From assembly GCA_003024175.1 (NCBI GenBank), contig MDYQ01000021.1, positions 124,001-188,000 of the forward strand: DNA of 64,000 bases, in the 5' to 3' direction. The position numbers and the translations under genes were made by a program. Shown here piece by piece: positions 87 to 49,923 of this stretch (the first letter of the stretch is position 1; each line of letters opens with the position of its first letter). Below the pieces are notes generated by a model, which had not been told where the DNA came from, made no database searches, and was given only the letters and a program-made list of their open reading frames with translations. Origin of the DNA: Planoprotostelium fungivorum. Its lineage: Eukaryota > Evosea > Variosea > Cavosteliida > Cavosteliaceae.

Positions 87-1091
87 TCACCTCTTAAATT
101 CGTTCCACACGTGCTCCAACTCGGGTGGTGCTATCTCTCTCGTCGTGCAGTGTTCATCCACGTAGTAATGTGAATAGACAATAGATGCAGCTCCGCAGAC
201 AAAGAGAGCGCATGAGAAGAAGAGAAGCCAAGACAGTGGTGATGTTCTGGGTGGTTTCGTTTGGATAGAGGATGTGGCGTCCTCGATATCTTTCTTCTGT
301 GTCTTGATAGGGGATTTAGATGATTCTTGTTCCTGTGGACTCGTGGGTGCCTGAAGATCATGTCAATGTGTGCAGATGTTAGGATGCATCATTACCTTCT
401 TAACGGATGGAGGTCTGGGCATGTTTCTATCGGCAAAAGCTGATCCGGATGAGCTCTTAACGGCCATGGTCTGTAGTCGTCAATGACAATGCGGAATGTG
501 TTGTTCATGCATACCTTCTTCTTCAAGACGTAACCGACACTGTCTGTAGGTGTGGATGTGCTTTCATCTTTCGAAGCGGGTTGAGGTGTGTGAGGAATGG
601 TGGTCTCTCGATCGATTGAGATCTCATCGTGTTCATCGATCTCCTCCATCACTGTCTTATCCATGAAGTCCTTCTCCACTTCACCTTCGAAGAGGCAACG
701 TCTGATGTCAGGTGCTACGAGGGGTAAATTTGTATGATGACGATGGAATCGCTCACGAGGTGATCTGCGTGCCTTTTCGTCCTTTACATCCGAAGAGCAG
801 CCTCCTTCTTCGAGTTTTAGAATCTCGGCGATCTCTTCTAACATCATCCTCTTTGTTCTACGGCTCTTTCCACCCGAATGAGTCTAAATGGTCAATCAAC
901 AATCTCCTTCGTAAAATAATAAGACTCACGTTCACGACGCCCTTCAGCTTTGGATGGCATTTTACAAACTCTGTGATCTGACTCAATGTGGGGTCCAAAC
1001 CAAGAGCGGGAGAGGATGGTGGCGAATAGATGAGCTCTCCTGACTCCGCCTTCAATTTCTCAAGTTTAGGAGTGACTTTACAGTCTGTCAT
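87..1091 (-). CDS. Unknown tail-anchored membrane protein
   Basis: I see four exons (1091-930, 883-515, 470-396, 350-87) joined by phase-0 GT-AG introns of 44-46 nt, giving about 289 residues. No known domain is recognised. The N-terminal two thirds is hydrophilic and acidic, with short Ser/Pro-rich stretches. One hydrophobic segment of about 20 residues (SWLLFSCALFVCG...) lies some 40 residues from the C-terminus. There is no signal peptide, so a tail-anchored or type II topology facing the cytosol is inferred. The ATG at 1091 opens the first exon and the stop is at 89-87. It is transcribed away from the H2A/F-box gene, with about 170 bp between the start codons. Confidence 0.6.
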
Positions 1092-1258: not shown

Positions 1259-3555
1259 ATGCCAATCATTCCCGTCGTCGATGTCAAATCACTGGATCGA
1301 ACACGACCGCAATATGGACCTCTTGATCCGGGCCCTCCTCCGTCTTCAGCAGCAGGATTACTGGTTCCAGTGTCCTGTGTTTACGAAGATCTCCAACAGC
1401 ACCCTGTCTTTGGCATGGATGGCAGACCGAGAAGACACCAACGCAGCACAAGCAGCCACGTCTATATAGCTAGTGTATTACAGTGTCTGATGGCAGAAGT
1501 GCTAAAATCAGCCGGTAATGCTGCGAAAGAGGAGGGTGTATGCACCATCGAGCCGGATCACATTGGGACAGCATTGAAGAAAGATGAGAAACTGCTCAAG
1601 TTGGTCGTGGCACTGAAGGGAGACGCCGACGTCACCGGAGGAGAGACTCCAGCTGTGGTTGAAACTGACCAAGTTCAAGTGAGTGTCTTCACAAGACGAT
1701 GAGACGCCCTGACTGAGGACATCGATAGTTGTTTGATTTGAACGCGGACTGGCTGCAGATTGTGTTCTACCACGTCGAAACTGTCCATCTCATCCAGTCC
1801 TGCTCGTTCGTGTGCAAGAGTTGGAGGGAGATGTTGCACCCTGACAGCAACTTTTGGAAGCGCCGGTTTCTCAGTCTGTATCACTTGAAGCCGAGGGGCA
1901 ATATACCTGACGAGGCTTATCTTCAGGTATGCGCAACGGTGTATGTAGACTGAGATGGATACGAGGCGTTCCAAGATGGTGCTTACAGCTGGAGAGAAGT
2001 AAATCACACGATGGATGTGCTCTACTATCGCCATCTTCACGCGGTGAGATCACGCTAATGTGACGATCATCGATCGATGATCGACTTGATCTCAGATCAT
2101 GACAATCGAACAGGACTCATCACTGGTCATCTCTAAACACAATTTCGAGATCATGGTTGGCGATATCATAGAAGATTATCATTCAGACACTGAGATGACG
2201 GAAGAGGCAGTCGACGTACTGCAGGCAGCAGCGGAAGATCACGTGATCAAATACATGGAAGATCTGGCTAGACTGGAAGAGAGGGAGGGAAGAGAAGTAG
2301 ACGAAGAGATGCTGAACGAGAGGGACGATATCCGTCTACAACGTTCCGAACGCCTGATCGATCGACTGATCGGCTGCGACTCGGATGACTCCACGACAAA
2401 TGACACAGAGTATATCGATGACCCCATTGCACAGGAACAGAGGTGACATCTCACACAAGTGAAAGAGCTGACTCGTTGTAGACAAGAGATAGAGCGTCGT
2501 CTCGTCTATACCATGGATGAAGCGGAGAGAGAAGGACCGAACCTGACTGACGACGAAGACTGGGCCAATGATGAAAGTGCTGAGCTCTCTGAGTGGTATG
2601 ATAGCAAATGGAGGAGAGTAGGAACGTGCCTGCAATATTACATCGACCTCAATGAAAAGCCACGAGAGACCATCGATCGGGCAGACTATCAGCTCTGGTG
2701 TAGTTTGAACGAAGAAGTGCCCCCGCAGCGATGGAAAGGTCTCGTAACGCACAATATACCCTGGTTGCCGGGTGACATCATCAACACCCGAGGACTGATC
2801 GAAGAGATGATAGAAGAAGGTGATTCAGCAGCAGAAACAGTCGTCTGATGCACGCAGGGTCATCCAATTACTTGAGAGAGTATTGGGGCCGCAGCTGTTA
2901 CGACTTTGCCAGTAGCGTCATGGGATTGCATCACATACGAGAAGAGTTGGACGGAGAGATATTCCAAGTGCGAGAGAACCCGATGGTGGGCAGACGACAT
3001 CGAGTGGTCGAAGAAGAAGCAGAGTGGATCCACCAGGAGCACCTGCGGCAACCTCGTCTCCACTGCTCTTGGAACAAAAGCCTTCCACGTCCGCCCACCT
3101 CTCTCGATGTCATTCGAAGCAAGGCGACGGCACACGTGAAGGGTCTAGAGCTCTTCCACATCATACAAGATGGCTGGCCCTCTCACGAGATGATACGTCA
3201 CCCTCTACCCATCGTGGACATCTTCTCACTCTTTGCTCGTGCGTCGGACGCCCTGTCGGCAGAAGAGAAGAAGATCATCGGTCAGATGCAGCCGAGACAA
3301 TATGATGGATACAACTTGTTACACATGGCCATCGATTGCATGCCTGACGACCCTGAGAACTGCGAGCGGATGGTCAGGAGGCTAATGGAAGAGTATGGCA
3401 TCTCAGTGAGAAGACAGACAGAGACAGACGGGTACACGGCTATCGATCTGGCAACAGAGAATGGCAGAGGAGGGCTATTGAAAGTGCTGAGAGATTACGA
3501 AGAGGAGAATACGGAAACAGTGGTGCAGCTGAAGAAGATGAAAGTGATAGAATGA
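1259..3555 (+). CDS. Histone H2A-fold / F-box fusion protein with ankyrin-like C-terminus
   Basis: Six exons (1259-1678, 1729-1926, 1966-2043, 2096-2442, 2482-2819, 2858-3555) give about 692 residues. Exon 1 carries a divergent H2A histone fold. An AGLxxPVSxVY helix-1 segment is followed by VYIASVLQCLMAEVLKSAGN, equivalent to VYLAAVLEYLxAEILELAGN of H2A, and then an acidic C-terminal segment. A canonical 50-nt phase-0 intron joins this to an F-box (LNADWLQIVFYHV, then SFVCKSWREMLHPDSNFWKR). The rest is acidic and Trp-rich and ends in two weak ankyrin-like units (GYNLLHMAID, GYTAIDLATENGRGGLLKVL). F-box proteins recruit substrates to SCF ubiquitin ligases, so a histone fold could be the dimerisation or substrate surface; that is inference. 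The F-box exon has no upstream Met and an in-frame stop directly before it, which favours fusion over two genes. The fold lacks the usual basic N-terminal tail. Confidence 0.7.
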
Positions 3556-49851: not shown

Positions 49852-49923
49852 AGCGAAGTGGCGCAGTGGAAGCGTGTGGGGCTCATAACCCCAAGGTCGT
49901 AGGATCGAAACCTACCTTCGCTA
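49852..49923 (+). tRNA. Initiator tRNA-Met (CAT)
   Basis: AGCGAAG pairs with CTTCGCT (first pair A-U), the D arm is GCGCAGTGGAAGCG, and the anticodon loop is CTCATAA with anticodon CAT in a GGG/CCC-rich stem. The T loop ATCGAAA with A54 and A60 is the eukaryotic initiator signature. No intron. A T-run follows at 49924, fitting a pol III terminator. Confidence 0.97.

Follow-up and report, generated by a model that had tools for sequence, protein, structure and literature searches.

Gene Structure

The stretch of 64,000 nt of Planoprotostelium fungivorum DNA that was analysed, here called the window, contains at 1259-3555 on the plus strand a gene which, from a comparison with its paralogs, is modelled as six exons encoding a protein of 686 residues with a pI of 4.88 (Table 1). 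The modelled protein is composed of an H2A-like histone fold, followed by an F-box, an H3-like histone fold, an acidic middle and an ankyrin-like region. All five modelled introns are of the GT-AG type with lengths of 38-70 nt.

A preliminary description of this DNA had placed an H2A/F-box gene at 1259..2043. The fusion and its splice join are supported by the data discussed below, but the end at 2043 is not, because the model continues to 3555; that account was also incomplete, as neither the H3-like fold encoded by exon 4 nor the ankyrin exon was noticed, and the conserved paralogs were missed as well. The 50-nt phase-0 GT-AG intron that had been proposed between the H2A-like and F-box exons is borne out by the coordinates, and the TGA that ends read-through of this intron is present at 1700-1702, as had been stated. 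The F-box exon does lack a start of its own, i.e., an in-frame TAG at 1726-1728 immediately precedes its frame and leaves no ATG upstream.

Because of an in-frame TGA at 1951-1953, a second short intron is needed for the frame to reach 2043. The boundary of this intron is less certain than that of intron 1, since the corresponding 42-nt stretch in the paralogs C381 and C55 fits either a GC-AG intron or read-through. At the site of intron 4, these two paralogs are modelled as one longer open acidic exon. A Pfam search of the frame 2459-2845, which contains exon 5, gave no match.

Table 1. Elements of the modelled gene in the window
Feature	Position	Strand	Description
Exon 1	1259..1678	+	140 aa; start codon ATG 1259-1261, H2A-like frame open up to 1678; family-specific N-terminus MPIIPVVDVKSLDRTRP..., H2A-like fold, then 20-residue linker
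H2A-like histone fold in exon 1	about residues 29-120, nt 1343-1618	+	
Intron 1	1679..1728	+	50 nt, GTGAGT...AG, phase 0; donor GTGAGT at 1679, acceptor AG at 1727-1728
Exon 2	1729..1926	+	66 aa, F-box
Intron 2	1927..1965	+	39 nt, GT-AG, phase 0; covers in-frame TGA 1951-1953; placed by eye
Exon 3	1966..2043	+	26 aa, AFQDGAYSWREVNHTMDVLYYRHLHA
Intron 3	2044..2113	+	phase 0; an alternative acceptor ending at 2095 would give six extra codons
Exon 4	2114..2442	+	H3-like histone fold at about nt 2114-2371
Intron 4	2443..2481	+	39 nt, GT-AG, phase 2 (window copy)
Exon 5	2482..2819	+	conserved within the family
Intron 5	2820..2857	+	38 nt, GT-AG, phase 1; 35 nt in C381, 40 nt in C55
Exon 6	2858..3555	+	family-specific region and ankyrin-repeat similarity (about nt 3322-3489); stop TGA 3553-3555

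Frames of an apparent upstream gene are found head-to-head with this gene at 392..1091 on the minus strand; if the minus-strand frame 858-1091 has the start of that gene, the two start codons are separated by about 170 bp. Further into the window, a tRNA-Met (cat) was identified with ARAGORN at 49852..49923 on the plus strand.

The H2A-like Fold

The proposal that exon 1 encodes a divergent H2A fold is upheld by searches of the PDB, where phmmer yielded a best E of 4.1e-9 and, at E<=0.01, 205 distinct sequences, of which the best 60 are all H2A, H2A.Z or H2A-containing chimeras. A profile built from the four copies of exon 1 retrieved 208 distinct sequences at E<=0.001 (best 8.6e-16), and in the alignment obtained with this profile, residues 24-116 correspond to H2A 13-97, i.e., the region that spans helix 1 to helix 3. 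An HMM made from a single H2A sequence of the same genome scored 39.7 bits in the window protein, to be compared with 4.0 bits for the best of 900 shuffles. With the Pfam Histone model (cut-off 26.4), exon 1 alone scored 21.6, which is below the cut-off, and the whole modelled protein 30.3, which is above it. The AlphaFold model of exon 1, obtained with the four-sequence alignment, displays helices at 38-47, 64-91, 99-108 and 110-120 in the order of H2A, at low confidence (pLDDT 49), and a Foldseek search with this model returned only nucleosome or histone-complex entries among the 50 matches listed. Taken together, these sequence comparisons argue firmly for H2A homology of exon 1 as opposed to a chance match.

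That the protein is not a core histone, as was suggested earlier, is supported: the DNA-contacting basic residues of H2A are gone from the window copy, and the modelled product is not a small stand-alone protein with a basic tail. A shorter product, formed by retention of intron 1, is possible.

The H3-like Fold

In a phmmer search of the PDB with exon 4, 167 distinct sequences were found at E<=10 (best E 0.012), and the best 60 of these 167 are H3 throughout. When the genome itself was searched, the four family members were followed by seven matches, five of which are the H3 genes of the genome as located by PF00125. An HMM made from two H3 sequences of the genome gave 22.2 bits with exon 4 of the window copy and 12.5-14.0 bits with the other three copies, i.e., all four exceed the top score (9.3 bits) that 10,000 shuffles of these exons gave. 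When 2,542 open frames, taken from the window and from other loci that were fetched, were scored with the H3 HMM, the window exon reached 23.7 bits (E 5.4e-6) and ranked behind 14 frames, all at H3 or H3-variant loci (12 inspected); the H3-like frames of the other copies scored 9.8-11.8 bits, just over the first unrelated frame (8.9).

Other measures are weaker. A single H3 sequence matched the whole window protein with 17.6 bits, and C381 and C55 with 5.5 bits, which is noise considering that the best of 900 shuffles reached 5.4. The four-copy profile of exon 4 reached H3 only at E 0.12. Pfam gave no significant Histone match for exon 4 alone, an E of 0.11 for the longer frame 2099-2443, and no Histone match in any of the four H3-like exons searched separately. 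The families that Pfam did list for these exons, CENP-T_C in two of the four (best E 0.072) and a phage family in one (E 0.037), were rejected. The similarity to H3 extends from helix 1 to helix 2 and is weaker in C381, C55 and the four-copy profile. The alignment of loop 2, which holds an insert, and helix 3 is unreliable; the AlphaFold model (four-sequence alignment, with a weak pLDDT of 66) comprises helices at 8-25, 30-57 and 64-92, the last being the predicted third helix. Fold searches with this model were not decisive. The H3-like fold is acidic, with a pI of 4.29 over 86 residues. Overall, the comparisons point clearly to H3 descent of exon 4 in the window copy, which is likely also to apply to the whole family. 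Hidden H2B or H4 folds were sought in the window, C381 and C55 proteins, and none scored above shuffles.

The F-Box and Ankyrin-like Exons

Exon 2 alone is recognized as an F-box domain by a curated model, PF12937, with an E of 2.7e-5 and 24.3 bits, equal to the cut-off of 24.3; the score is under this cut-off both in the full-length protein (19.7 bits) and in the genome scan (23.6). The four-copy F-box profile yielded four matches, three of which are FBXO6, FBXO2 and FBXO44 at E 0.005-0.02, the fourth being a DNA polymerase-type enzyme (E 0.0075). The genome has three Skp1-family matches over the cut-off and a large F-box repertoire, with at least 151 matches at E<=0.1.

The Ank_4 model gives exon 6 an E of 1.7e-4 and 22.3 bits, just short of the 22.7-bit cut-off, and the full-length protein 19.6 bits. 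In C381, C55 and C462, the last frame extends beyond the ankyrin exon, past the end of the window copy. By eye, this extension holds a second F-box-like stretch (IDHLPRDIIEY...) and further conserved sequence; here C381 and C55 are not in register, and Pfam lists one F-box stretch for C55 only.

Paralogs and Evidence for a Single Protein

Three more loci in the genome (C381, C55 and C462) share the exon order of the window copy, where the H2A-like part of C462 is partial, i.e., the order is identical in all four loci that bear exons 2-6. A fifth copy, C204, comprises only the first 20 codons and is cut off by the end of its contig. The C462 copy is a pseudogene from which about the first 47 codons have been deleted, such that the upstream region is joined to about codon 48, and it carries an in-frame TGA in the acidic region.

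Intron 1 occupies the same position and phase in the four loci, with lengths of 50 (window), 54 (C381), 53 (C55) and 54 nt (C462), and reads GTGAGT...AG in each. The interior of the intron is saturated with changes: when the window copy was aligned with C381, C55 and C462, 320, 281 and 342 of 1000 shuffles, respectively, reached the observed score. The coding sequence on both sides was compared by codon position between the window copy and C381 and C55, with C462 left out. Over the 45 coding bases before the intron, the numbers of differences at codon positions 1, 2 and 3 are 2, 4 and 9 for C381 and 3, 5 and 9 for C55; over the 45 bases after it they are 5, 2 and 6 for C381 and 3, 1 and 8 for C55. 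This excess at third positions next to a saturated interior indicates that the frame was maintained as far as the two splice sites once the intron had diverged. The retention of boundaries, phase and flanking codons in spite of the saturated interior suggests that the histone fold and the F-box are parts of one protein, and we consider the comparative evidence for such a single spliced product to be good. The gene is presumably transcribed and spliced.

The origin of the family was also considered. Searches of viral contigs gave no confirmed relatives for either the ankyrin-exon alignment (18 pattern matches) or the H2A alignment (50), no relatives of the ankyrin exon were confirmed among 18 pattern matches in prokaryote genome contigs, and three exons searched against PHROG had no match. 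A viral origin is regarded as unlikely on the basis of the viral-contig searches with these two family alignments and the PHROG result, and the modelled GT-AG introns argue against a viral histone repeat. With one copy a pseudogene and no relatives beyond the genome in the viral and prokaryote contigs, the family is possibly young and unstable.

Selection and Loss of DNA Contacts

Rates of substitution were determined for each segment by the Nei-Gojobori method and are given below as dN/dS pairs. For the window copy and C381, these are 0.423/0.802 for the N-terminus, 0.293/0.667 for the H2A fold, 0.206/1.219 for the linker, 0.243/1.064 for the F-box, 0.140/1.585 for exon 3, 0.223/1.084 for the H3-like fold, 0.340/1.537 for the middle and 0.229/0.965 for the ankyrin exon. 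For all segments, dN stays below dS when the window copy is compared with either C381 or C55, where dS ranges from 0.55 to 2.9. The ratios are mostly higher within the young pair, C381 and C55, i.e., 0.073/0.119 for the H2A fold, 0.068/0.076 for the linker, 0.020/0.147 for the F-box, 0.062/0.200 for the H3-like fold and 0.175/0.322 for the ankyrin exon, and in the short exon 3 (26 codons) dN exceeds dS (0.084/0.069). Judged from these rates, selection on the family appears to have been mostly purifying.

The retention of DNA contacts was scored at 8 positions of H2A and 11 of H3, which we take to be the DNA-contacting sites. In the window copy, none of the 8 H2A sites and one of the 11 H3 sites (three of which are located in the poorly aligned loop 2) are identical; in the histones of the same genome, the corresponding numbers are 6/8 for H2A, 4/8 for H2A.Z and 11/11 for H3. 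The hydrophobic class of the core positions is kept at 25/30 positions of the H2A-like and 20/23 of the H3-like fold in the window copy, at 26/30 and 18/23 in C381, and at 25/30 and 19/23 in C55. Three of the six residues of the H2A acidic patch are kept in the window copy and five of six in both C381 and C55.

Other Histone Loci in the Genome

The locus C133 was considered as a second histone/F-box fusion, because matches to PF00125 and PF12937 are found close together there. However, the H3 frame comes to an end, and about 270 bp farther on a separate F-box frame opens with an ATG of its own and precedes what looks by eye like a WD40 gene; we do not read the two as fused. Divergent H3 variants are found at C133, C155 and C9, each occupying at least two frames, as though divided by introns, and each with an IPRA.F.RLV core. 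These three variants are possible candidates for centromeric H3. An H4 frame at C289:110549-110647 is without about 39 middle residues as compared to the H4 at C444:121914-122024. The latter, on the plus strand, forms a head-to-head pair with a canonical H2A (121068-121403, minus strand), the stretches that matched being some 0.5 kb apart.

Comparison with Known Systems

The nearest layout that was found is that of ABTB2, which, as far as it is described, also combines histone folds with a cullin-ligase-type domain in one polypeptide, together with ankyrin repeats, to which an ankyrin-like region corresponds here. The cullin-ligase-type domain is of the BTB type, and BTB domains serve CUL3. 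In the available part of a 2026 review, double histone folds are listed for SOS, ABTB2, SPT3 and some animal proteins, where the ABTB2 of animals is composed of a double histone fold, ankyrin repeats and BTB domains, with DNA binding reported for certain states of the cell cycle (PMC13088155). The repurposing of histone folds together with ankyrin repeats and a cullin-type adaptor is thus already known. Compared by these descriptions, the fold types, their order and the adaptor all differ: ABTB2 has a double fold and BTB, its relative Cca3S an H2B-like followed by an H2A-like fold, whereas here H2A-like and H3-like folds flank an F-box (PMC13088155). These differences suggest that ABTB2 and the family described here arose independently.

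Two other systems share the reuse or fusion of histone folds. Like the present protein, the histone domain of SOS1 is an example of folds reused outside chromatin with loss of DNA-binding features; to our knowledge, SOS1 has no F-box. Its folds differ in that an H2B-like and an H2A-like fold form a tandem pseudodimer, according to the part of the review available (PMC13088155). The histone doublets and quadruplets of Nucleocytoviricota similarly unite several core-histone types in one chain. The viral quadruplets are described as forming nucleosome-like structures (PMC11222145, in part), whereas the window protein has lost its DNA contacts and carries an F-box between the folds. The accessible text of the same article states that histone fusions are not observed in eukaryotes (PMC11222145).

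Routes from SCF to histone degradation are known from Rcy1, Met30 and Cdc4, and are in this respect similar. In the sections at hand, SCF-Rcy1 and SCF-Met30/Cdc4 act in trans on Cse4, and none of these F-box proteins is described with a histone fold, Met30 having a WD40 domain (PMC13079627). ASB9-CUL5 is also comparable: in this cullin ligase the substrate receptor has ankyrin repeats, and H3 and H4 are ubiquitylated when free but not when in nucleosomes, H2A and H2B to a much smaller extent; in the part of the article that was available the interaction is highly electrostatic, no histone fold is named, and the adaptor is a SOCS box, not an F-box (PMC12914668).

A search of the open literature by titles and the first parts of abstracts, the coverage of which is limited, gave no F-box/histone-fold fusion. 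The term "F-box" is absent from the available portions of PMC11222145, PMC10919886, PMC13088155 and PMC11390915, and the text consulted of the 2026 review does not describe a family with H2A-like and H3-like folds flanking an F-box (PMC13088155).

Proposed Function and Alternatives

The reading that we favor, tentatively and at somewhat less than even confidence, is that the protein is an SCF substrate receptor, which uses mimicry of a histone partner as bait. The F-box would bind Skp1 and thereby recruit Skp1-Cul1, the H2A-like arm would pair with H2B and the H3-like arm with H4, and the captured partner would then be ubiquitylated; these partners could be replaced by other proteins whose histone folds engage in the same kind of handshake. 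Since basic tails and the residues that contact DNA are missing from both arms, the expected target would be soluble histones, whether orphan or in excess, and the complex would stay out of nucleosomes, i.e., incorporation into nucleosomes looks unlikely. H2B is a plausible target, and H4 is an equally likely partner because the H3-like arm is also present. It is a bolder suggestion, and one that we regard as rather doubtful, that partner mimicry constitutes a new mode of substrate choice by a ubiquitin ligase, in which an H2A-like fold catches H2B and an H3-like fold catches H4 within a single SCF receptor.

Alternatively, the H2A-like and H3-like folds might pair with each other, either as an intramolecular pseudodimer or across two chains, to form a scaffold or dimerisation module in an otherwise ordinary F-box/ankyrin ligase, where the substrate is chosen by the ankyrin region. 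This is the main alternative, albeit on the unlikely side. It is consistent with the presence of both folds in one chain and the loss of their DNA contacts; on the other hand, H2A and H3 are not known to form a handshake with each other naturally, and about 112 residues (linker, F-box and exon 3) separate the two folds in the model. The available part of the 2026 review describes double histone folds as intramolecular pseudodimers, notes that the SOS double fold serves intramolecular interactions and has lost its DNA-binding electrostatics, and presents ABTB2 as joining such a fold with ankyrin repeats and BTB domains, but the double folds of SOS and Cca3S are H2B-like then H2A-like (PMC13088155).

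It is improbable that the protein is a decoy or defence receptor aimed at histone-fold proteins of invaders, e.g., viral histones, or at histone chaperones. Copies of the gene do come and go (four loci and a truncated one, with one a pseudogene), histone repeats are encoded by giant viruses according to the portion seen of PMC11222145, and the H2A fold has the highest dN/dS among segments of more than 60 codons (0.44 with C381 and 0.51 with C55). This value is nevertheless below 1 in all three comparisons, and no relative was found in the viral contigs.

A decaying family that makes no useful protein is very improbable: C462 lacks about its first 47 codons and has an in-frame TGA, the distal end of C381 is, by eye, out of register with that of C55, and dN exceeds dS in exon 3 between these two copies, but the models of the window copy, C381 and C55 are free of internal stops and dN is below dS in all window-copy segments. 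Least probable of all is that two adjacent genes, one H2A-like with transcripts that end at the TGA at 1700 and one encoding the F-box, H3-like and ankyrin parts, merely look fused. Stops inside the intron would allow an H2A-only product by intron retention in every copy, and the divergent H3 of C133 is located about 270 bp upstream of an unfused F-box gene, so that neighbourhood by itself proves nothing. However, the F-box exon lacks an upstream start at all four loci, only 50-54 nt separate it from the H2A-like exon, and both splice sites as well as the phase have been retained around a saturated intron interior, which makes separate neighbouring genes unlikely.

Implications

If partner mimicry by an SCF receptor is the correct reading, the protein would be a surveillance ligase for orphan histones that is itself built from histones and that recognizes unpaired histones via the surface that is normally covered. 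Such a ligase would be unlike the histone-degradation routes described in the literature consulted for comparison. It would offer a simple test of how cells might distinguish orphan from paired histones and would represent a natural design for recognition of an exposed dimer interface.
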